From Siphonodentalium dalli (Eukaryota > Mollusca > Scaphopoda > Gadilida > Siphonodentaliidae), in NCBI GenBank assembly GCA_032622095.1, contig CP136064.1:7927512-7991511 (forward strand): a stretch of DNA of 64,000 nt, given 5' to 3'. Position 1 is the first letter of the stretch, and every line of letters begins with the position of its first letter. The translations under genes were made by a program, and so were the position numbers. The notes beneath the pieces are model-generated. The model searched no databases and was not told the origin of the DNA. It saw nothing but the letters and a program-made list of their open reading frames with translations. Positions 49,341 through 64,000 of the stretch are shown piece by piece.

Positions 49341-50733
49341 GGATTAAAGGCCTACCTTTATCAACCGATCACTAGCTGGATTAAAGGCCCACCTCTATCA
49401 ACCGATCACTAGCTGGATTAAAGGCCCACCTTTATAAACCGATCACTAGCTGGATTAAAGGCCCACCTTTATCAACCGATCACTAGCTAGATTAAAGGCC
49501 CACCTTTATCAACCGATCACTAGCTAGATTAAAGGCCCACCTTTATAAACCGATCACTAGCTGGATTAAAGGCCCATCTTTATCAACCGATCACTAGCTA
49601 GATTAAAGGCCTACCTTTATCAACCGATCACTAGCTGGATTAAAGACCCACCTTTATCAACCGATCACTAGCTGGGTTAAAGGCCCACCTTTATCAACCG
49701 ATCACTAGCTAGATTAAAGGCCTACCTTTATCAACCGATCACTAGCTAGATTAAATGCCCACCTTTATCAACCGATCACTAGCTAGATTAAAGGACCACC
49801 TTTATCAACCGATCACTAGCTAGATTAAACGCCCACCTTTATAAACCGATCACTAGCTGGATTAAAGGCCCACCTTTATCAACCGATCACTAGCTAGATT
49901 AAAGACCCACCTTTATCAACCGATCCCAAGCTGGATTAAAGGCCCACCATTATCAACCGATCACTAGCTGGATTAAAGGCCCACCTCTATCCACCGACCA
50001 CTAGCTGGATTAAAGGCCTACCTTTATCAACCGATCACTAGATGGATTAAAGGCCCACCTTTATCAACAGATCACTAGCTGGATTAAAAGCCTACCTTTA
50101 TCAACCGACCAATAGCTGGATTAAAGGCCTACCTTTATCAACCGATCACTAGCTGGATTAAAGACCCACCTTTATCAACCGATCACTAGCTGGATTAAAA
50201 GCCTACCTTTATCAACCGACCAATAGCTGGATTAAAGGCCTACCTTTATCAACCGATCACTAGCTGGATTAAAGGCCTACCTTTATCAACCGATCACAAG
50301 CTTGATTAAAGGCCCACCTTTATCAACCGATCACTAGCTGGATTAAAAGCCTACCTTTATCAACCGACCAATAGCTGGATTAAAGGCCTACCTTTATCAA
50401 CCGATCACTAGCTGGATTAAAGGCCTACCTTTATCAACCGATCACAAGCTGGATTAAAGGTCCACCTTTATCAACCGATCACAAGCTGGATTAAAGGCCC
50501 ACCTTTATCAACCGATCACTAGCTGGATTAAAAGCCCACCTCTATTAACCGATCACTAGCTGGATTAAAGACCCACCTTTATCAACCGATCACTAGCTGG
50601 ATTAAAGGCCTACCTCTATCAACCGATCACTAGCTGGATTAAAGGCCCACCATTATCAATCGATCACTAGCTGGATTAAAGGCCCACCTTTATCAACCGA
50701 TCACTAGCTGGATTAAAGGCCTACCTTTATCAA

Positions 50734-51040
50734 CCGATCACAAGCTTGATTAAAGACCCACCTTTATCAACCGATCACTAGCTTGATTAAAGACCCACCT
50801 TTATCAACCGATCACTAGCTTGATTAAAGACCCACCTTTATCAACCGATCACAAGCTTGATTAAAGACCCACCTTTATCAACCGATCACTAGCTTGATTA
50901 AAGACCCACCTTTATCAACCGATCACTAGCTTGATTAAAGACCCACCTTTATCAACCGATCACTAGCTTGATTAAAGACCCACCTTTATCAACCGATCAC
51001 TAGCTTGATTAAAGACCCACCTTTATCAACCGATCACTAG
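50734..51040. repeat. Locally homogenised AGCTTG/GACCC block at the right end of array B
   Basis: About eight consecutive monomers share the combination AGCTTG plus GACCC, which is scattered and uncommon elsewhere. They lie immediately before the array terminus. Confidence 0.8.
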
Positions 51041-51056
51041 CTGGATTAAAGATCCA

Positions 51057-51115
51057 CCGGTTTCAATAATATCACATTTACCACACGTCAAACGATCACA
51101 AGCTGGTTTAAGTCA
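51057..51115. repeat. Degenerate tail of array B
   Basis: After the last good monomer the sequence decays. A recognisable remnant (AAACGATCACAAGCTGG followed by TTTAAG) lies at 51,090-51,112, suggesting an eroded edge monomer. Confidence 0.6.
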
Positions 51116-52993: not shown

Positions 52994-53470
52994 ATGTCGT
53001 GTGATGACAGTGACCCGGCAGTGAATATCAGACTTGTCGACGGAGATAATAATGCACAATATCACAAAAACGGGAACTACAAAATGAACAACTTAAACGA
53101 AACGAAGCCGCAAGATAAGACATCTGATGATGGTATCGGAACAGTGGAAGAGATTTCACGAATGAGGAATCGACTATTTGGGCTCACTATTTTGGCTGTC
53201 CTCGGGAATGTTATTTTAATCATCGCTTGCTCAGTGCTATTCGGAGTATTGGATCACAATATCGCTACGCACAAACATCCACCAGACGTCGGCGAACAGA
53301 TAGCTAAGATTCTGAACCGGGAGCCGCTGTGTCTTCCGTGCGACAGCATTAAGTTAGGACCGAGTCCACAGGAGAACGGAATGCTGAACGAATTTAACCG
53401 GCGGCCGGACGGCGAGATAGAACAGTGCTGTATAGAAACGCCGGGACAACTGCTCAAAATGATCGACATG
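52994..53470 (+). CDS. First coding exon of a type II single-pass membrane protein (TNF-ligand-like N-terminal part, partial gene)
   Basis: The exon encodes 159 residues in phase 0 and ends at a consensus donor (GACATG|GTAAGT). The ATG is favoured because an in-frame TAA lies three codons upstream and a G sits at -3. Residues 1-60 are hydrophilic, rich in D/N/K, and end in a basic patch (RMRNR). Residues 61-86 (LFGLTILAVL to VLFGVL) form one clear membrane segment, and there is no cleavable signal peptide. By the positive-inside rule the N-terminus is cytoplasmic and the C-terminus extracellular. The extracellular part has a CLPC motif (Cys113, Cys116), then LGP, then a CC pair (145-146) followed by ETPGQLLKM. 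I recall this arrangement from molluscan membrane proteins with a C-terminal TNF-like jelly-roll domain, but that domain is not present in this exon, so the family call is tentative. Further exons must lie downstream, possibly beyond the window. The last 56 bp belong to a tandem repeat that continues into the intron. Confidence 0.72.
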
Positions 53471-53833
53471 GTAAGTTTAACCCTAAATAGAACAGTGCTG
53501 TATAGAAACGCCGGGAAAACTGCTCAAAATGATCGACATGGTAAGTTTAACCCTGAATAGAACAGTGTTGTATAGAACCGCCGGGCCAACTCCTAAACAT
53601 GATCGAAATGGTAAGTTTAACCCTAGATAGAACAGTGCTGTATAGAACCACCGGGCCAACTCCTAAACATGATCGACATGGTAAGTTTAACCCTAGATAG
53701 AACAGTGTTGTATAGAACCACCGGGCCAACTCCTAAACATGATCGACATGGTAAGTTTAACCCTAGATAGAACAGTGTTGTATAGAACCGCCGGGCCAAC
53801 TCCTAAAATGATCGATGCTCAGTTTAACCCTTT
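53415..53833 (+). repeat. 70-bp minisatellite spanning the exon-intron junction (six copies, five splice donors)
   Basis: Units begin at 53,415, 53,485, 53,555, 53,625, 53,695 and 53,765. Each contains GATAGAACAGTG, GTATAGAA, CCGGG and GATCGACATG followed, in the first five, by GTAAGTTTAACCCT. The first copy is coding up to 53,470 and the others are intronic. Copy 2 is closest to the exonic copy (2-3 differences before the donor). Copies 3-6 share CCGGGCCAACTCCTAAA. In copy 6 the donor is destroyed (ATCGATGCTCAGTTT). Confidence 0.95.
53471..53476 (+). other. Splice donor 1 (GTAAGT), with identical donors at 53,541, 53,611, 53,681 and 53,751
   Basis: GACATG|GTAAGT fits the major-class 5' splice-site consensus. 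The same hexamer recurs every 70 bp. Donor 2 extends the open frame by 70 bp, changing the exon phase from 0 to 1. An in-frame TAG at 53,558-53,560 means donors 3-5 could only be used with a premature stop. Confidence 0.75.
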
Positions 53834-54058
53834 CTATACTGAATGGAGTATCCCACCAGCTATACAAGTATATACATTGGAATGGTATATTATTCACTTG
53901 GAGGGATGTCTAGGTAGTACAAGCAACCGACAGACAAGTGAAATGATAATATAACTACATAATGGTTCATATCGACGATATGTTTTTGTAGATTGCGCGC
54001 GAGCAACCACATATTGACAATAGAAAAGGGAGGCAAAGACAACCAGTAATACCATTAG

Positions 54059-54307
54059 GAAATCGGCTGTGTTCCATGTGTGTCAAACAATGTGTCGAAT
54101 TTGAAATGCATTTTATCATTGAATAACGCATACGATGATTTAAGATCTAATTTATTCAGCGAAATTGAGAAACATGATAGTGAATTCAATAATTTTAATG
54201 ACGCAGATAAATTTGCACTGATTATGATAAATGATAATATTAAATTAATTAACAAGGTTTCCAACATTGTCCGGCTATTCTTCCTTCGGCGGAATAATAA
54301 AACTTGA
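54059..54307 (+). other. Doubtful candidate terminal exon
   Basis: An open frame of 82 codons plus stop begins right after a TTAG that could serve as a splice acceptor. It is in phase 0, matching donor 1 of the upstream exon. The predicted peptide is rich in Asn, Asp and Leu with a helical look (DDLRSNLFSEIEKHDSEF) and no domain I recognise. Against it, the acceptor lacks a pyrimidine tract, the region is AT-rich, and several chance open frames of similar size exist nearby. AATAAA at 54,428 could end such a transcript. Confidence 0.2.
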
Positions 54308-54427
54308 AGAAATTGTTGAGGGAATGTTGATAAGAACTGTGTTTGTTATAATAATTTGTTTATGTATTGCTTATTTATGTATGTGATACTCATCAGTATC
54401 GTTCAACTGCCCACTGAGGTGTTTTGC

Positions 54428-54433
54428 AATAAA
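54428..54433 (+). terminator. Possible polyadenylation signal AATAAA
   Basis: AATAAA followed within 10-25 bp by a GT-rich stretch (TGTATTTGTGTCGATG). It is only meaningful if the candidate terminal exon just upstream is real; such hexamers are common in AT-rich DNA. Confidence 0.15.
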
Positions 54434-55260
54434 TTATTGTATTTGTGTCGATGTATGGTAAATGTTCAGCTAATAAGTTCAACAAACGACCATATTGGTC
54501 ATGTGATGAACTCGCGATCTGAACAATTCCATCCAAATATGAGTTCTTCTGAACATTTCCCATCAATCGATGTGAATCATTAACTTGTGTTATCATTTCT
54601 CCGATCTGTCGTCAACTTATATTTCCCGATCGTCCCCCCAATGAGGAATAGTAATAGTTCTTTGTTATGACGTGGCAGGAGAATTCATTTAGTAAAACAT
54701 AAAAAGATAAAATCCATCGCCCATAGTTATCATTGGCCCAACATGCAGCCGACATTTATTGAAGAAATGTTTTGTAAATTTGCAGGAATGTTTAGGATCA
54801 CTTCCATTGATTGTTTAAAGACATATTATGTACTTGTTCGGGTGCGTGAAACTGATAAGTTAGTATTCAGGCACTATGCCAATTGGAGGAATGCAACATT
54901 CTACTAACACCGTTGAAACTATGAAGCAAATCGACTGTACCACTCCATAGAAAACACCGTCTGAACTATGCTCAAATGTAAATATTTGCTACGCGATTCG
55001 GGACGCATCTGAAGGCAATAAACTAACGAAAACGATTTCACCATCGAGAGTCACTGCGTTTATTTAATACATAAGAATGATGGCGTATGTTGTCAATTTA
55101 GATATAATATTTGTAAAAATAACTACTTTGAACAAGATTATTCTCCATTTCTATCTGATCACCCTACCGGAGTGTTTCACATCACTTTAATGAACTTGTT
55201 ATCTAAACATTTTGTTCCTAAGGGAACTACTCGTCGATGAGTCTTTACTATGTAATGGTT
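54434..55260. other. Intron or intergenic, no recognised feature
   Basis: AT-rich, non-repetitive. A 54,362-54,583 plus-strand frame starts with a hydrophobic stretch (MYCLFMYVILISIVQL) resembling a signal peptide, but the rest shows no family pattern; I treat it as chance. Confidence 0.5.
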
Positions 55261-55341
55261 AGAGCACAAGAATTGTTCTTTACCAGAATCAATCGAGTCG
55301 AAGACGAGATTTATTCTAGTAAAGAACAATTCGCGTGCTCT
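55261..55341. repeat. Imperfect inverted repeat (29-bp arms, 23-nt loop)
   Basis: Arm 1 (55,261-55,289) and arm 2 (55,313-55,341) are reverse complements with three mismatches. The core GAATTGTTCTTTAC pairs perfectly with GTAAAGAACAATTC. Outer ends are AGAGCAC and GTGCTCT. It may be a fold-back element remnant or a small transcribed hairpin. Confidence 0.8.
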
Positions 55342-56257
55342 GACCAACTTAGAGCACAATTGATCCCACATAATGCAATCAACTAAAAATTTGCCTTTGA
55401 GAGTGTTTTGACCACGACGCACAATCCGTGCGCTGGCCGCGATTGGAAATAATAGCGGTTAGCCACGCCCAGAAACGCGATTATCATGCACTATCGCCGT
55501 TGAATGTGAATAGATATGTCCGAAACAACCCGGACTGGTTCCACTTTGAAGAGCCCGTGCGATGCGATTTGTCTGTTATGAGTTTCGTGTGCTTAACAAT
55601 GGGATAATCACTGAACTATTCCTTTGCCAGCCTTGGGAATTGTTGTGCTTTACCAAAACTCAGGGAACGACTGCAACAATGGGATTGTGCTCTAAAGAAG
55701 GGTTAAATATAGCAGCCACACGCGGCGTACTTGTATATTCAATATCAAGCAGTTAGGAAACAAACAATGCTCTATGAACTCAAGTAAATGCGAGGCGGCG
55801 TAAACAACAATTAAGGTCACAACGTCCTATTTCTATAAAAGTACACTGCTACTAATAAGGCAGATTTTTAAAGTGCAGAAGAATCCATAATCATCGGTTA
55901 AGATACAAAGTTCATGGCAATATCATAGGATTTCCCCGTCGTCGCCCAACGTTTTGAGTTTTTCAAAGAAATATAACTCTAATAAGCTCTAAACGAATCA
56001 CACTATATAGAGACACATTTCAAGAACGCTATAGGAAATAGACATGGCAGGGTGTGTGGGCTTTCGGATATTGGCGGCACATTCTAACAAACTGCAGCCC
56101 AAAAATTTATCGACGGGAGATTGCCAAGAAGGGGTAAAGAAGGGTTGGTATCGAGAAAGGTTCGGTTTTTGCGCGTTCATCGTCGCCCAAATCCTTTAAC
56201 CACGCCGTTTTCCTTTCCTTGTATTGGTGGTCAAGAAACGATTACCCACCGGAATTT
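55342..56257. other. Intron or intergenic, no recognised feature
   Basis: A 64-codon plus-strand frame (55,562-55,756) and a 60-codon minus-strand frame (55,998-56,180) have no recognisable motifs. No tandem repeats were noticed. Confidence 0.5.
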
Positions 56258-56315
56258 GTCAGAACCCAGGATCCCCAGCCGGTCACCCAATCCAAGGACT
56301 GTATAACCGAGCTGG
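56258..56315 (-). repeat. 5S rRNA-like fragment (possible SINE head or pseudogene)
   Basis: Read on the minus strand, the segment contains CTCGGTTA, then CCTTGGATTGGGTGACCGG, then CTGGGGATCCTGGGTTCTG. This resembles the 3' half of eukaryotic 5S rRNA, including the internal control region that recruits TFIIIA (consensus CTTGGATGGGTGACCGCCTGGGAA). The 5' half of 5S is not recognisable upstream, so it is not a functional gene. It could be a 5S-derived SINE fragment, an old pseudogene, or coincidence in another repeat. The match is by eye and memory. Confidence 0.3.
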
Positions 56316-57066
56316 ATGTTGCCAAAATTGGTTAATTTTCAAAAGAAATCTCAATTTCAAGCTATCAATTTAAGTATGTTCCTTTTTTTAAATATTTTTA
56401 TTGGGATCAAAATATGAATACCATTATTCGGCAGAAGTTCGCAGAAATAAAACATGACAATTGGGTTTTACTTAAAGATGATTAAAGCAATCCAGTGGGT
56501 TAAAGATGCGGGCGGCGTTGGCTGTGGGTATGCTATTAAAATATTTAGCTCCGTCAAAACCGCCATAAACAGAAAGAATAGTAAAATATGGACAGACTTT
56601 GTTCTCATACCAATCAGAACTATGGCATAAACAGTATGCTATTGTCAAATGTTTTTTCCTTTGTTATGTAAACAAAAGCAAAAAACGTTACATAACCTGG
56701 CTTTGGTTTAGATCCGGATATGGTAAACATAAAGCGCGTTATTTGTTACTGTTTTCCTGATATGGAAATAATAAAGAGCGTTTATATCATTTGTGTGTGA
56801 TTAACCAATAGAATTGCGATGTGTTATGTAAACAGAAGCAAAACATCTTTAACACGAGCAGGTTTTTGTTTACGTACACCATCGTATGTCTTGACGACAA
56901 TATACTATTTACGCGCTGATTATGTTTGGCATTATGAACAAAACTATATATATTTTAATATTCTTTCCGTTGATGGCGATTTGAACAAATATGAATATTT
57001 CTCAACGAACGCCGCCCGTGCCTTTAAACTAATATTTTGAGACACCTGGTCATCATATCTCCAGAT
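56316..57066. other. Intergenic with a small local repeat
   Basis: A roughly 22-bp motif starting TGTTATGTAAACA occurs at about 56,660 and 56,820. The first copy also forms a hairpin with TTACATAAC (9-bp arms, about 56,662-56,698). No gene recognised; a 73-codon frame at 56,819-57,040 lacks motifs. Confidence 0.5.
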
Positions 57067-57260
57067 GTATTTGAGGAGCCTATTGGCTTGAAACTATTCG
57101 ATATATCAATCAATCAATCACCCGCGATGAGTATTTGAGGAGCCTATTTGCCTTGAATCTGTTCGATATATCAATCAATCAATCACCCGCGATGAGTATT
57201 TGAGGAGCCTATTTGATGAGCCTATATGAGGAGCCTATTTCAGGAGCCTATTTGCCTTAT
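57067..57260. repeat. 64-65-bp tandem repeat plus GAGGAGCCTATT run
   Basis: GTATTTGAGGAGCCTATT begins at 57,067, 57,131 and 57,196. Between copies is an ATCAATCAATCA stretch and CACCCGCGATGA. After the third start only the short GAGCCTATT core is repeated about four times. Confidence 0.9.
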
Positions 57261-57342
57261 TATTGTCCAATATATAGATTGCTGATATCTTTGGAAAATA
57301 GAGTAAAACGAGTGTTAAAATATAGAGCAAACTATGATGCAG

Positions 57343-57412
57343 GTACCTGATCCTGGTATCTGACCCTCGCACCTGACCTTGGAACCTGACCTTGGCACCT
57401 GACCCTGGCACC
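57343..57412. repeat. ~15-bp minisatellite (CACCTGACCCTGG type)
   Basis: About five tandem copies of CCTGACCYTGGCA with small variations. Confidence 0.85.
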
Positions 57413-57629
57413 GCTCTGCCAACTTTGAACCACAACATTCGACTCACGGGGATTATATATGTATTTCTAATAATGGTAATTAATTGATGGTGTGATGTTG
57501 TATCCGGTACTCTGGTGATTCCCTGGTCCACACGACGCCACATTTAAGCCACAACACACCATTCAATTTCACGTATAGATGCTTATACAGTACATGTATA
57601 ACTTTTATGAAGATCGGCGACACAATTTT

Positions 57630-57790
57630 GCCCATGCGCTTTCGGTGTAGCTTCCCACCCTAGCATTGACTCGAATGGGACCATGCACTTTTGGTGTCGC
57701 TCCACACCCAATAACTGACTCGAATAGGACCATGCACTTTCGGTGTCGCTCCCCACCCAATAACTGACTCGAATAGGACCATTCACTTTG
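57630..57790. repeat. 49-bp tandem repeat, three to four copies
   Basis: CCATGCACTTTYGGTGTCGC recurs at about 57,632 (as CCATGCGCTT), 57,681, 57,730 and 57,779 (partial, CCATTCACTT), an exact 49-bp period. Units also share CCAATAACTGACTCGAATAG. Confidence 0.9.
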
Positions 57791-57809
57791 ATTTCTTTCA
57801 GTAACATCG

Positions 57810-58410
57810 TTATATTCCCGTATCATGGACATGGCTATACATGTATAACTTTGTTGGATATCGGCGACTAAAACATTCTTATTAATAATGTTAGTGCCCT
57901 CCCCTCTCCATCCAAGACACACATGGCAACAAATGTGGCGTCCTAACCCACGATCTAATGGAGAAGATTGTGTATAGATTTGGTGATTTGTGCCCCCCCC
58001 CCCTATCTCTCACAAAACGGCACCAATTTGGCGTCTGTAAACCACACGATTAGACTCCTCATATCACGGTGAAGAATATATATCAATTTGGTAGAAATTG
58101 ACCCTAAACATATTGTTTATCAATTTTGATATAAATAAACCACACCATTAGAATCTGCATATAATAGAGATGATTATGTATATGTTTGGTGGAAACGGCG
58201 ACAAAACAAATTCTCCCCATCTATCACTTCAAACGGCAACAATTTTGGCGTCTTTAAATCGCACGATCATATTCCTTCTATCATGGAAATGAATATGTAT
58301 CAATATGGTGGAAATCGACGCTAAAAATATTTCTAATAAAATGTGTTGCCCCTCTCTCCCTCCGTGCACCCCTGACTCGAACGTTGCCACTTTTTTCAGA
58401 TTGAACTCCT
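57810..58410. repeat. Old degenerate tandem repeat (~100-120-bp unit)
   Basis: Diverged units share TATCATGGAAATGAATATGT-like, TTTGGTGGAAATCG-like and GGCGTCTTTAAACCACACGA-like modules. Equivalent points are near 57,822, 57,950, 58,058, 58,159 and 58,279. A C-run (about 57,991-58,003) lies inside. An open frame at 58,229-58,429 (minus) is a by-product. Confidence 0.7.
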
Positions 58411-58473
58411 TGCTCAATTTAACAAACATCTCCTTTTTTGTAATTTATTTTTATTTTGAAAAAATAACGCTGC

Positions 58474-58550
58474 AATAACATCGGCCGGGGTACCCCGAAT
58501 CACCCCGAATCACCACACCTAATAACATCGGCCGGGGTACCCCGAATCAC
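58474..58550. repeat. 47-bp direct repeat with CGGGGTACCCCG palindrome
   Basis: AATAACATCGGCC followed by GGGGTACCCCGAATCAC occurs at 58,474 and again at 58,521. The CCCCGAATCAC piece is additionally duplicated after the first copy. Confidence 0.85.
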
Positions 58551-58648
58551 TCATACATAATCTGTACTTATTCAACTGCTTAGATAGTATCATGGAAAAT
58601 TATGTGTGCTAAAGATAGTCAAGCCTTGATATAGTGTGCCTGTCATTT

Positions 58649-58741
58649 GCAGAATGAGGTCCCCAGAGGGTGAATTTAGTGACCCTATCTCATATTGCGG
58701 GGTAGCGTCACCAATTTCACCCTCTGGGAACATCATTCTGC
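58649..58741. repeat. Inverted repeat, ~41-bp arms, 11-nt loop
   Basis: Arms 58,649-58,689 and 58,701-58,741 are reverse complements with about six mismatches. Outer ends GCAGAATGA / TCATTCTGC and the inner GGTGAA / TTCACC blocks are perfectly paired. It looks like a small fold-back element; no clear target-site duplication was found. Confidence 0.8.
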
Positions 58742-59544
58742 TGAGGACTCAACTGCTGTGGGAGGCCTAGGATAAGATTGAAGATTCCCAGTTGAAGTTG
58801 GTGGTGTTCACCCATTAGTCACCTCAATTATGCATTTTATCTTCTGCAAATTAAGGGATATAGAAACTGAACAGAAGGGAATAAGTAACTAATTTGGTTG
58901 AAATCGGCACAGGTATCTCGTAGACAGACAGATCCTACTTTTTTCTATATACATAGCAAAGTGAAAAACGTTTTAGGGACCCAGTGTAACGAACACATCG
59001 AAATCATTGGTGTGTACCATTACAATGTTAATCACACGAGTTCCTATAGTTAACAATTCCATCTTGTACAGTAGTATTATTTCCGAATATGACCAGGCTT
59101 CCGTGAATCATGTGCAGTGCGCACTTAAACATTGCGAATATATATGGCTGATGAACATTTAATACCACGCAACTAGCTCGGTAAAAGCACGTAAACACGG
59201 GCGGAAATAATGCAGATAGTGTGCAATCATGCAATGACAGATTTACAAGCAGTTCGCCGTAGAGTACTCTTGTGTGCAATATATGGATGACATACTACTT
59301 ACAAGAAAACCATAGTCAGAAATGGTAACGCCACCAAGATCGTATTATTAGCCATAAATATAAATAATAATACAATTATTCTATAAACTAGCTTTCAAAT
59401 TTTATGCGGGAAATTTGCGTACTTCCATATTTCAAGTTTTCCCGTTTCTCGTGGCATACATTACTTTCATCAAACTGTCTTCTTTATTACACAAGCTGAT
59501 AGGCCCGACTTCACCCGGGCTGTTTCACATCTGCTTTCCGGTGA
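58742..59544. other. Intergenic, no recognised feature
   Basis: AT-rich unique sequence. An 83-codon minus-strand frame (59,028-59,279) has no recognisable domain. Confidence 0.5.
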
Positions 59545-60065
59545 AAGGCGCGATTTGACCTTCAATTGACTATTTCGAAAGTCAAGGTCAGGTCAGGGTC
59601 ATGATTTGTCCAGTCCAAAACACCCCCACCCGTAGAAAACTACCCATAGGTATCAAATTTCGTCGAAATCCGTCCGTTTTACCCAACTTGACCTTTAATT
59701 AACAATTTTGAAGGTCAAGGTAAGGTCAGAGTCATGATTTGACCCGTCCAAAACACCCCCCCCCCCGACAAAAGTACCCATAGGTATCAAATTTCGTCGA
59801 AATCTATCCGTTTTATCCGAGTTGACCTTTGATTGGCCATATTGAAGGTCAAGGTCAGGCCGAGGTCACGATTTGACCCGTTCAAAACTCTCCTCAGACC
59901 AAAGTATCCCTAGTATCAAATTTCGCCGAAATTTGTCCGTTTTACCCAAATTGACCTTGCATTGACAGTTTTAAAGGTCAAGGTCAGGTCGGGGTCACGA
60001 TTTGACCCGTTCAAAACACTTCCCGGACACAAATACCCATAGGTATCAAATTACGTTGAAATCTA
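59545..60065. repeat. ~130-bp tandem repeat (four copies) rich in AGGTCA half-sites
   Basis: AAGGTCAAGG-type cores lie at about 59,578 (AAGTCAAGG), 59,711, 59,845 and 59,974. Each unit also carries TTGACCTT about 15-20 bp upstream of the core, GGGGTCACGATTTGACCCGT or similar, CCATAGGTATCAAATT and TTCGTCGAAATC. Core sequences combine TCAAGGTCA with neighbouring AGGTCA. TTGACCTT and AAGGTCAA can pair as a short hairpin. The first copy is the most divergent at its left end. Confidence 0.9.
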
Positions 60066-60520
60066 TGGAAAGCCGAGGAGGACATGTTGGTTGCTAATTG
60101 CTAGATATACGACGCGGTATTTTGAAGGTGTTTCAAACTAGGAGATAGAAGTATTCTGCCTTTCAAATGGCGATGAATTATAGTAGTTTATTCAAATTTT
60201 ATGGCATAAATTGTTATTAAAACCGTATATACTATAAAAAATTAATGACTCGAAAATTAAGTGGGCCTTTAAACAAAGTCACAATTGCATTTAGGCTCAT
60301 CTCATACTCGTCCATTCAGCGATATTCTACTGCGCAGTTTGTTATAGCCTCCAGTATTTATTGAGCGTTATACCCCCAACTGTTATAATTCGCCTTTAGC
60401 AGGCGTACTCTTGCCTCAGATTATTGAGATATTAGGTCACACATAATCACATTAAATCGCATCGTAACATAGCAATTGTGTGGGCTCCTTGGCGTGAATA
60501 TGTAATGAGAAATAAGGTGA
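60066..60520. other. Intergenic, no recognised feature
   Basis: AT-rich unique sequence with no open frame or repeat I can support. Confidence 0.5.
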
Positions 60521-61290
60521 TACGTAATGACATTAAACTCAAGAAAACCCTCGAAAACAAAACAAAATCACATTTAATGTTTTACGTTATTTCCTTCATA
60601 AAAAGAATCTTCGTGATAATGAACCCTCTCGTTACTTTAGAATATAGAATTAACCTTAAAATAAAAAAATCTTTGGAACACAGAACCTTCGGAATAACGA
60701 ACCTTCTGATTGGTGAACCTTCGGAATAGCGAACATTCAGAGAAATTTCGGAATAGTGGACCTTCGGGATAGTGAACCTTCGGAATAGAGCCATGCCCCC
60801 CAATATTCATATTATATGCCCAGAGTTCAAAGGTATGGACCCATAAAATTCTAAACTTGGCCCTTAAAATAATGAACTCCAAATTGGAGCACACACAGAA
60901 CACCACTTAAGTCAACTGAACCTATGTCATGTCCCAATGCGGGAGGGTCCATATATACCACAACATTCATAGTATATGCCAAGAATTCAAAGGTATGGGC
61001 CCACGTAATGACATAAAATCTCAAGAAAACCAGCGAAAACAAAACAAAATCACATTTAATGTTCTAAGTTAAGTTATTTCCTCCTGTATCTGTATCGGTG
61101 TGCGCGCATGATCAGTTCGGATGTGAGCGCACACTCCATATAAAGAATCTTTGTGAAAATGAACCCTCTCAAATTAGTCTCAATACTTTAAAATATAGAA
61201 TTAACCTAAAAATAACAAAAACCTTCGGAATAGAGAACCTTCGGAATAGCGGACCTTCGGGATAGCAAACCTTCATAATAGAAGCATGTC
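60521..61290. repeat. Local ~290-bp direct duplication (offset ~481 bp) with CCTTCGGAATAG runs
   Basis: Copy 1 (60,521-60,790) and copy 2 (61,002-61,290) share ACGTAATGACAT, CTCAAGAAAACC, CACATTTAATGTT, AATGAACCCTCTC and GAATTAACCT in the same order. Both end in short repeats of GAACCTTCGGAATAG. A second shorter duplication (ATTCATANTATATGCC to TTCAAAGGTATGG) lies at about 60,803-60,840 and 60,963-61,000. Minus-strand frames here only read the repeats. Confidence 0.88.
61098..61134. repeat. Small hairpin present only in copy 2 of the 290-bp duplication
   Basis: GTGTGCGC (61,098) pairs with GCGCACAC (61,127-61,134) around GCATGATCAGTTCGG. The corresponding place in copy 1 lacks this segment, implying an insertion in copy 2 or a loss in copy 1. 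Confidence 0.65.
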
Positions 61291-61840
61291 CCCACAATTA
61301 CACCGGTGACGTAAACACATGTGCCAATCTTAGTTGTACTCTCGTAATTATCGGTACGATGAAACGGTGACGGAATCTGACGAGGTTTGCCGAATGTACA
61401 ATCACCCAGTGAATTATCGATCGCCCATGCGATACAAAAAAACCAAAAGCAATAAACACCACACTACGGTGGCGTAATAAAGTACACTCGCCTAACAATT
61501 CACTGCATACACAAGGCGATATGCGTGGTTCCTTTATTAACGTGTTATACACTGACATTTTCTAGAAATTAGCCTTAACATATCTGACAATACGCAAGAG
61601 TGTTAATGGCTGTGCAAGTTATGTTACCCAATTTCGCAGTCATATATTTTTATCGCTATTACTTAAATGCACATATATGCGGGGTTATTTGTGATTCATT
61701 AAGTCGGGTACATTTATCACGACGGAGATATTCAGTCCATTCATTAGATGATTGTGCTGAACCCGGTGAATAACATCATTCACCAGCAATAATGTTAATG
61801 TTGGCAGGACATCTCTGCAAACCATCATTCTTGATGTCAT
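61291..61840. other. Intergenic, no recognised feature
   Basis: Unique sequence; an 86-codon minus-strand frame (61,298-61,558) has no identifiable motif. Confidence 0.5.
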
Positions 61841-61874
61841 ATTCTGGTATATTCAGGTATATTCAGGTATATTT
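61841..61874. repeat. 10-bp microsatellite (ATTCAGGTAT), three copies
   Basis: ATTCTGGTAT followed by two ATTCAGGTAT copies abuts the long hairpin. The same decamer family recurs at 62,871. Confidence 0.9.
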
Positions 61875-62021
61875 AAGAAATAAATACACGGTGTAGAGGT
61901 GTGTATGGTCAAGTTGTACCACACAAAACTGATTGTAGGACGACGCATAGCGGAGTCCTACAATCAGTTTTTTGTGGTACAACTTGACCATACACACCGA
62001 TACACCGTGTATTTATTTCTT
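61875..62021. repeat. Near-perfect long hairpin (67-bp arms, 13-nt loop)
   Basis: Arm 1 (61,875-61,941) and arm 2 (61,955-62,021) are reverse complements with only three mismatches: GA versus TC after GGTGTA, and one C versus A in the ACCACA region. Outer ends are AAGAAATAAATACACGG and its complement; inner ends are GTAGGAC and GTCCTAC. No open frame. It could be a recent fold-back MITE or the source of a long hairpin RNA. Confidence 0.92.
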
Positions 62022-62750
62022 TTGTAATAAGACTGAAAGTTTATGGTCACAATTCGACTGAATAGTCAACGAAATACTGCACTTTTTCGGTCTCAGGTGA
62101 GAAAACATTTCGTGGTGTAATTCGTATTGGGCGTACTCGATTCTTTGCATGGAGTACTCTAGTAATTTGTTTGCGTAAATAATCGTTGTGATTGGCTAAA
62201 AAAACATGTGTTTTCAGCGGCGCCCGTGCCTTTCATTTAAATTGTACAGGAAATACGATTGCTGTCATTTCTGTGTTGAACGTTGTTGGGACAACATGAA
62301 TATTATCATCGACTATGGACCATTTTCCTTACACAAAGCGATCTAAATTATCTAGTTTACTAAACTAATCTTATTCCCCTTCTGTACTGGTGAACAAGCG
62401 CTTTCATTTTCAACTTGATTCCGAAATATCGAATATGATCGCGATTCGAATCGACGAATGCACAGCCCGGCCCCATGGATATATTTTGTCATTTAATATA
62501 CTTATTAAGTAACTTTCTTTGGTCGTAACATATATCAGTATATAATAACATCATTTGGACAATATTCATTGGCAACCAAACTGGTTTCAAGCGAAAAATC
62601 GCTAGAAAATTCGCAAGATTGTCAAGATGTATAGCAAAATAATTCAAAGGGTTATGGGTGCGGGTGTACTCCGTTGATGCCCCGTTTGCGCGGAGTTAGA
62701 AAAGACGGGAAAAGTCGCGTGCGGCGATCTGAATAAACCGATTTTTTTCG
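62022..62750. other. Intergenic, no recognised feature
   Basis: Unique AT-rich sequence; a 60-codon minus-strand frame overlapping 62,644-62,826 has no motif. Confidence 0.5.
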
Positions 62751-62783
62751 TGGTACAATTGGAAAAAGTAGAATTGTACCACA
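62751..62783. repeat. Short perfect inverted repeat (GTGGTACAATT)
   Basis: 11-bp arms at 62,751-62,761 and 62,773-62,783 with an 11-nt loop. The arm and its flank (TTGTACCAC then AAAACTG) resemble the inner part of the 61.9-kb hairpin arm. Confidence 0.8.
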
Positions 62784-62870
62784 AAACTGGAACGAGATAG
62801 CCATGGTAACTCGGGCCACTGGCCAATCAGGACATGGCTTTTAAGCATAGTTAGGCAGGGTCGTATTACA

Positions 62871-62940
62871 ATCAGGTATATTCTGGTATGTTCTGGTATA
62901 TTCTGGTATATTCTGGTATATTTGTATCTTCGGGTATATT
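62871..62940. repeat. 10-bp microsatellite (GTATATTCTG), about five to seven units
   Basis: Tandem GGTATATTCT decamers with single-base variants, decaying at the right end (GTATCTTCGG). Confidence 0.92.
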
Positions 62941-63136
62941 AGGCAGGTTCTGTATATGCATGTGCGCATACATAAACATGTGAGAACATATCTGGGAACT
63001 CAGTTCTGATTACGTCGAACAGACGGATCATTCCTATTGAGATCAGGCATTATAAATATGCGCTTACTACGGAACCTCCTGGAATTAACACAAATTGATT
63101 ATTATTTACTTTTTCGACAATAATATTTGGGTCTAT

Positions 63137-63230
63137 TTAGGTTTCCAGACGTCTGTGACCACAGGCCATTATATATAAATTAATTAGGTATCCAGACGTC
63201 TGTGACCACAGGCCATTATATATAAATTAT
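63137..63230. repeat. 47-bp direct repeat, two copies
   Basis: Units 63,137-63,183 and 63,184-63,230 share CCAGACGTCTGTGACC, ACAGGCCATT and ATATATAAATTA with one or two differences. CAGACGTCTG is itself a palindrome. Confidence 0.93.
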
Positions 63231-63306
63231 TTAGTTTACGTAACACACCCACCATGTAACATTTACTAACACAAGTAATCTTTTCCACTCGACCACCTAT
63301 CCACTA

Positions 63307-63711
63307 AGGGTACGTTCATACGCTGGCAAGTTTACACGGTATGGTTTTGTGGGCATTTCGTCATAGAAAACCACATAGTGCCAAAATATGAACCGTAACA
63401 TGCATCTTTACCAAAGCTAACGACTTGAGAAGTAAAATGTATGTAGTTCCACTTGTAACGGTGCTACTGTAATTTGCCTTCAAATACCTGTATGATTTAT
63501 TCTTGCGAGATAATTGTATGATATTTACAGGCAAATTCCTGTAGCATCATTACTAGTGGAACTATTGAGATTCTACTTCGCACGTAGTTAGCTGTGGCAC
63601 AGATGCACTTTATGTGCCTGTTTCCGTTCATATTATGGCACCATATCGTTTTATACGACAAAATGCCTGCAAACCATACCGTGCAAACTTGCCAGTGTAT
63701 GAACGTACCCT
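63307..63711. mobile_element. Fold-back MITE-like element, 405 bp
   Basis: The element begins AGGGTACGTTCATACGCTGG and ends with its near-complement (CCAGTGTATGAACGTACCCT). Similarity between the two halves continues almost to the centre (about 63,509), for example AGTTCCACTTGTAA versus TTACTAGTGGAACT, and AATTTGCC versus GGCAAATT. It has no coding capacity. I could not find a convincing target-site duplication, so the superfamily is unassigned. The inner arms are clearly more diverged than the outer ~45 bp. Confidence 0.82.
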
Positions 63712-64000
63712 AGCGGTAACGATTCACATAGGTTATTTGTTGAAAACATGTTACATGTGGTCCAGGTAACTAGATAATTTATGTGTTGATTATACATGTA
63801 GAACAACACGACTTTTCCCATTTCTACCGAAGAGATTTCGCTAGAATAGGACAGCGTTGAATTTTCATTAAAGATCACCTTGATATTATTTGTATTGTTA
63901 GATTTCCGAACGAGGTATCTCAATTTCCTGACATTCGCACAAATGTACTGAAACTAGAGTGCACTTGATAACACAATCTGGTATGTTATACATAATATGT
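63712..64000. other. Right edge, no recognised feature
   Basis: AT-rich sequence with a 90-codon minus-strand frame (63,651-63,923) that partly overlaps the fold-back element; no domain recognised. Confidence 0.5.

Follow-up and report, generated by a model that had tools for sequence, protein, structure and literature searches.

The window examined here, the whole 64,000-nt stretch of DNA that was analysed (C4:7927512-7991511, contig CP136064.1), lies in the 2.23-Gb, nine-contig genome of Siphonodentalium dalli and contains the first exon and part of the first intron of a predicted four-exon gene, here termed gene A, which runs approximately 19 kb past the end of the window and encodes a protein of 342 aa (Table 1). 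As the start codon of exon 1 we assumed the first ATG in the conserved frame, and the product of this exon comprises an N-terminal part, a hydrophobic stretch visible in the translation, and a putative stalk. A Pfam search with exon 1 alone returned no families; the full predicted protein matches PF00229 over residues 212-342 (E 1.3e-25, 90.3 bits, cut-off 23), and its best match in the PDB is 5l19 (TNFSF6, E 4.7e-18). With a TNF homology domain at its C-terminus, gene A is a TNF-superfamily ligand gene.

A genome search with the exon 1 peptide gives seven matches (E 0.001 or better), which all lie on C4, and in each case a TNF-domain exon follows 15 to 98 kb further along the same strand; these seven TNF exons are the best of 13 PF00229 matches. 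Gene models were built for four of the seven paralogues, A being the gene in the window and B, C and D lying on C4 at 12.81, 12.355 and 34.89 Mb, respectively. The four models share one common exon structure and give full predicted open reading frames of 342 aa each in A, B and C and of 289 aa in D. Values of dN/dS of 0.15 between A and C (whole gene) and 0.41 between A and D indicate that these genes are under constraint and have been kept despite the arrays described below. The coding sequences of A and C differ at 62 of 1,026 nt, with a dS of 0.195. Within intron 1, outside the window, a 3.5-kb piece (C4:7995367-7998868) is 97.7% alike between A and C, which exceeds the likeness of their coding sequences, pointing to later transposition or conversion.

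Table 1. Features of gene A and of its splice-site arrays. Positions are those of the window unless given on contig C4, in which case the feature lies outside the window.
Feature	Position	Strand	Remarks
Exon 1, coding sequence	52994..53470	+	477 nt, 159 codons, phase-0 end; open frame, 7 matches on C4, full model open
Donor array, units 1-6	53415-53484, 53485-53554, 53555-53624, 53625-53694, 53695-53764, 53765-53831	+	five of 70 nt, last of 67 nt
Donor 1, GTAAGT	53471..53476	+	sole donor giving full-length protein with exon 2
Donor 2, GTAAGT	53541..53546	+	+70, phase 1; in frame only with exon 2 skipped
Donor 3, GTAAGT	53611..53616	+	+140; past in-frame stop
Donor 4, GTAAGT	53681..53686	+	+210; past in-frame stop
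Donor 5, GTAAGT	53751..53756	+	+280; past in-frame stop
TAG closing the exon 1 read-through frame past donors 1 and 2	53558..53560	+
Last unit, donor lost	53765..53831	+	TGCTCAGT in place of TGGTAAGT
MITE-like element, 5' part	53824..53975 (right border approximate)	+	TTAA target, CCCTTTCTATACTG... end; adjoins last unit
Intron 1, part in window	53471..64000	+	whole intron 19,616 nt
Acceptor array	about C4:8000147-8000618
Exon 2	C4:8000598-8000634		37 nt, phase 0 to 1
Exon 3	C4:8005470-8005562		93 nt (108 in D), phase 1 to 1, codes AHLIG motif
Exon 4, TNF domain	C4:8010308-8010729

The junction between exon 1 and intron 1 of gene A is spanned by a minisatellite of six units of about 70 bp (53415-53831), in which each full unit consists of the 56 nt that end the exon and the 14 nt that begin the intron; TRF, run on gene A, gives a period of 70, 6.0 copies, 93% matches and a score of 652. 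Five of the six units carry an identical donor, ATG/GTAAGTTT (exon/intron), whose GTs open the donor intervals of Table 1, and unit six reads GATGCTCAGTTT and is without a donor. A preliminary description of the window had reported the exon-intron minisatellite of six units, the GTAAGT donor shared by five of them, the shift of phase at donor 2 (70 is not a multiple of 3; 70 mod 3 = 1) and the placement of donors 3-5 beyond an in-frame stop. These features are all borne out by the unit coordinates and TRF, by the reading of GTAAGTTT in all five units and by the TAG within the third unit, and the coordinates first given for the array were exact except for its end at 53833, which lies 2 nt past the last unit.

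In three of the paralogues this junction is covered by a tandem array in which several units retain an intact donor. A near-identical array of five units lies in B, and C has seven units (70, 70, 74, 74, 74, 74 and 76 nt) of a partly different type, such that GTAAGT is intact in 5/6 units of A, 4/5 of B and 6/7 of C, and the donor of the final unit is damaged in B and C as it is in A. In D, exon 1 ends at a single donor, GTACAT, and there is no donor array. Exon 1 ends at GTAAGT in the paralogue termed E and at GTGAGT in F and G, and inspection by eye of 150-200 nt in these three genes found no second donor copy. In gene A the acceptor of this intron, 19.6 kb downstream and, being outside the window, out of reach of the preliminary description, is likewise part of an array, which holds seven copies of TTTCTATTTT[CT]AG together with the start of exon 2, mostly spaced 73 nt apart. 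A pyrimidine tract and an AG are present in each copy, acceptors 2-6 being CAG and the last, productive acceptor TAG. A and B have minisatellites of similar unit length at both ends of intron 1, and the numbers of donors and acceptors are five and seven in A, four and seven in B, six and one in C, and one and two in D.

The close likeness of A and B, which lie 4.8 Mb apart on one contig and differ by 2 nt in their coding sequences, with aligned intron pieces and flanks 97-100% alike, raises the possibility of an assembly artefact, at least in the form of unmerged haplotypes. We regard this as very unlikely: the first introns of A and B differ in length by approximately 7 kb (19,616 and 12,494 nt), C has a separate donor array, and even if A and B were allelic, the arrays would be genuine as well as polymorphic.

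At the right edge of the donor array, the last unit adjoins the 5' part of a MITE-like element that may be of piggyBac type, a group marked by TTAA target duplications and by terminal inverted repeats that start with CCC. The element is dispersed in the genome: of the 41 matches listed, 35 are at other places and cover its first part (40 of 1,304 candidates were scored). Among four dispersed copies that were read, two (L031 and L032) run from TTAACCCTTT to AAGGGTTAA with TTAA at both ends, a third (L033) has one visible end, GGGATAA, and in the fourth (L034) a 5' end, TTCAACCC, was seen and no 3' end; the copy in the window shows no matching 3' end. The border of the element is marked by the dispersed copies with TTAA...AAGGGTTAA ends (two of the four read). 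The upstream units of the array keep the TTAA, at +7 to +10 of the intron, plus the first 4 nt of the element (CCCT), and since the border of the repeat unit thus falls 4 nt inside the element, the element came before the array. The donor region of D has neither the element nor a donor array. At L032:1490-1510, a copy of the MITE-like element directly follows a donor-like AAGGTAAG, and extended donor sequences may thus repeatedly contain the TTAA target.

Comparison of the units between genes provides a relative chronology for the two arrays. The junction between units 1 and 2 is at the identical place in A, B and C, which indicates that the first duplication is probably older than the split between A/B and C. 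Past the second unit the copies cluster by gene, with A3-A5 and B3-B4 forming one type, C3-C6 sharing a 4-nt insertion and C7 carrying a 2-nt form of that insertion, and units of 74 nt are found only in C. At the other end of the intron, acceptor copy 1 in A, B and D has a common GGCATTCCAT without the GCAG insertion, and the acceptor duplication therefore probably predates the split of A to D; the single acceptor copy of C looks like a fusion of the first and last copies. Copy number changes fast, with six donor units in A and five in B despite the likeness of their aligned flanks.

Several further repeats were observed in and around these loci. Approximately the first 24,000 nt of the window (1-24000) are taken up by a very long field of minisatellites composed of modules of 45 nt (GTATAACGACAGAGAGAAGCG...) and 23 nt (GTATAATGACAGCAATCCGGTGG), with higher-order periods such as 68, 113, 158 and 181 among those listed. 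At approximately 61867-62872 lies an interspersed repeat, about 1 kb long, whose inverted ends measure about 147 nt, and 38 of the 40 candidates scored for it (all but A and B) match at 98-99% on all nine contigs, suggesting a recent spread. Upstream of B, at C4:12805996-12811705, a segment of about 1.27 kb corresponding to window positions 49800-51066 is matched at several partly overlapping places, which indicates that it is repeated there (the list of matches does not include A's own place). Elsewhere in the genome, the minus strand of C2 at 149.83-150.60 Mb carries over 75 protein-kinase ORFs (PF00069) that are nearly identical, mostly 281 aa long and often 2.4, 2.6 or 2.9 kb apart, which constitute a large tandem gene array; a control with kinase exons gave 28 loci of 135 matches, all 28 in this one amplified cluster.

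All donor-acceptor pairs were tested for a reading frame open to the end, which is found for one of the 35 pairs of A, one of the 28 of B, two of the six of C and both pairs of D. The sole open pair in A and B joins donor 1 to the last acceptor, the outermost sites of both arrays; all extra donors are intronic relative to donor 1, and the frame is disrupted in the other 34 pairs of A. These results bear directly on the proposal, made in the preliminary description, that additional donors guard exon 1 against mutation of its donor. The identity of the five donors would fit such a backup role, but in A and B only donor 1 yields a full-length protein with any exon 2 acceptor, no alternative donor restores the full frame, and only donor 3 of C could partly serve. 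Reading frame thus rejects donor backup in A and B, and as a general explanation of the arrays we consider it extremely improbable.

A second proposal of that description was that the array creates isoforms. Splicing from donor 2 to exon 3, with exon 2 skipped, keeps an open frame in A, B and C because 70 and 37 both leave a remainder of 1 on division by 3, and in C donor 3 is also open into exon 2. The first of these products would have a stalk without exon 2 and its basic RRFR stretch, which we take to be a possible furin-type site with putative cleavage, so that release from the membrane may be changed; the second would add residues before exon 2. Against this reading, the donor 2 extension of 23 codons differs between A and C by 12 nt and 8 aa, with a dN of 0.217 that exceeds its dS of 0.137, and by simple reckoning a stretch of 23 codons would lack a stop by chance in about a third of cases. 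As judged from these substitutions, the extra peptide is without purifying selection and is not conserved. The donor 2 isoform as a conserved product is unsupported by the substitution pattern, and an isoform-generating role for the array appears unlikely. The third proposal of the description was that the extra donors may act as decoy U1 sites, for which they would be in the intron as counted from donor 1.

The upstream acceptor copies followed by GTAATA are candidate mini-exons of 42 nt (38 or 44 nt in some), separated by gaps of about 31 nt, which is short for an intron. When placed between donor 1 and the last acceptor, two of the six are open in A and two of six in B, the others being frameshifted or stopped, and an in-frame TAG occurs in 3/6 upstream copies of A and 2/6 of B. 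An in-frame mini-exon cassette was rejected on these counts.

If most transcripts used inner sites and were degraded, the arrays could exert a negative control by unproductive splicing, in which repeat number would tune the output of ligand between individuals or paralogues. The disrupted frame of 34 of the 35 pairs of A, the early TAG in half of its upstream acceptor copies and the difference in unit number between A and B are compatible with such control. CAG acceptors are generally as strong as or stronger than TAG, and the inner acceptors 2-6 of A may accordingly be equal to or stronger than the last. This reading is nevertheless improbable in our estimation, as the signal of constraint on the repeated sites is weak. 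Positions -3 to +6 of the donor are unchanged in the 15 non-terminal units (five of A, four of B and six of C; P = 0.039, with 20/70 columns variable), a count that leaves out the three terminal units, whose donors are all damaged and with which 3/9 columns vary. P is 0.12 for GTAAGT alone, 0.19 when A is taken by itself and 0.14 for C by itself. The weakness of the signal follows from the copying of units from one another, many being identical through recent copying. The variable sites of the exon frame fall at third positions in 7/9 cases in A (P 0.008), 4/12 in C and 8/17 when pooled (P 0.17), and conservation of the exon frame in all units was therefore not upheld.

The location of the arrays was likewise compared with the general abundance of tandem repeats at these genes. 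Minisatellites with a period of 30 or more make up 8.3%, 7.6%, 13.2% and 13.4% of A, B, C and D, respectively, and with 7.6-13.4% of the loci in this form, position in an array is by itself weak evidence of function. Two of the six splice sites of A lie in arrays (P 0.08, or 0.04 with both arrays removed from the background), a slight excess that was judged after the fact.

The outermost position of the productive pair in both arrays of A and B could also be read as a ladder for nested splicing, in which inner donor and acceptor copies help to remove a long intron in steps; for example, splicing of donor 5 to acceptor 1 would be followed by that of donor 1 to acceptor 7 to give the final mRNA. 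In its fullest form, the arrays would act as a repeat-built, length-variable rheostat, with an intron of 12-20 kb removed in nested steps and repeat number tuning the output of a TNF-type ligand. Products of inner splicing would remain substrates of the outermost pair, the residual intron being 716 nt in A and 646 nt in B, and the intact GTAAGT of most units in A, B and C, together with the pyrimidine tract and AG of each acceptor copy of A, agree with working inner sites. Intrasplicing and nested introns are known from 4.1R and dystrophin (PMC5126111), and the likeness is that inner sites of a long intron could act before the outer pair; unlike those cases, the sites here arose by tandem repetition. 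However, the outermost geometry is automatic whenever a junction duplicates. In addition, C has one acceptor and D one donor, and both genes look intact; each being without one of the arrays, nested removal is not required. We therefore hold stepwise removal to be a doubtful explanation, and give its extension to a rheostat of ligand output no better a chance.

The reading we prefer, to which we assign a probability of roughly 60%, is a neutral growth of minisatellites over splice sites in a minisatellite-rich gene, tolerated because the productive pair takes the outermost place in the arrays; both the succession of events and their neutrality are what we infer from the comparison of the genes. 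The TTAA at +7 to +10 of intron 1 would have been the insertion site of a MITE-like element, and the 70-bp minisatellite would have begun with a duplication whose left end lay 56 nt inside exon 1 and whose right end lay 4 nt inside the end of the element. This first donor duplication probably took place before A/B and C diverged, with separate later expansions in A/B and in C. Independently, and probably before A to D diverged, the start of the 37-nt exon 2 would have been duplicated together with its 3' splice site, the acceptor copies then growing to seven in A/B; the single copy of C is perhaps the result of collapse. Under neutral growth, splicing would mostly join donor 1 to the last acceptor, the only pair predicted to give the full protein in A and B, and the inner copies would act as decoys, their products being cut short by an early stop or undergoing a further round of splicing. 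Persistence of the arrays would be explained by the placement of every additional copy within the intron that the productive pair defines. In favour of this reading are the constraint on the genes, the single open pair of A and of B, the fast change in copy number, the unconserved donor 2 extension, the stops in candidate mini-exons and the abundance of minisatellites at these loci. The unchanged positions -3 to +6 and the slight excess of splice sites in arrays speak against it, though weakly, as does the third-position excess of A, which C and the pooled count do not share.

Minisatellites and duplications that involve splice sites have precedents in other systems. The minisatellite of the human gene IFI6 has a much shorter repeat unit, of 12 bp. 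Reportedly, it was described as supplying multiple splice donors by Turri, Cuin and Porter in 1995 (NAR 23:1854). PMC4526556, PMC2572611 and PMC3618361 cite IFI6 (6-16, G1P3) as having a minisatellite with multiple splice donors, and in PMC4526556 two downstream repeat units are reported as donors that lead to three mRNA species. In potato RdRp, according to PMC4974935, an intron was gained by tandem duplication across an intron-exon (3' splice) boundary. The arrays of S. dalli resemble that of IFI6 in that a minisatellite supplies several potential splice donors, and differ from it in affecting a different gene, in having units of 70-74 bp in several paralogues, in the presence of another array at that intron's acceptor and in the MITE-like end that serves as a repeat border. 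They differ from potato RdRp, where the new intron was detected, in comprising up to seven copies. Minisatellites derived from transposable elements are described in the human genome (PMC3389668), and these are alike in that the tandem unit includes transposon sequence; the unit described here, in contrast, holds only 4 nt of the element end plus the TTAA target, the rest being exon and splice site.

A donor minisatellite is thus already on record for one human gene, IFI6, and what is new here are the arrays at both ends of one intron, for which a literature search of limited scope found no description. Together, the donor and acceptor numbers of A to D constitute a natural series for testing the choice of the spliceosome among identical tandem sites, and the same series also allows repeat number to be tested against the output of a cytokine-like gene. 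Furthermore, these loci illustrate how a minisatellite that copies a splice site can take its border from the end of a transposable element.
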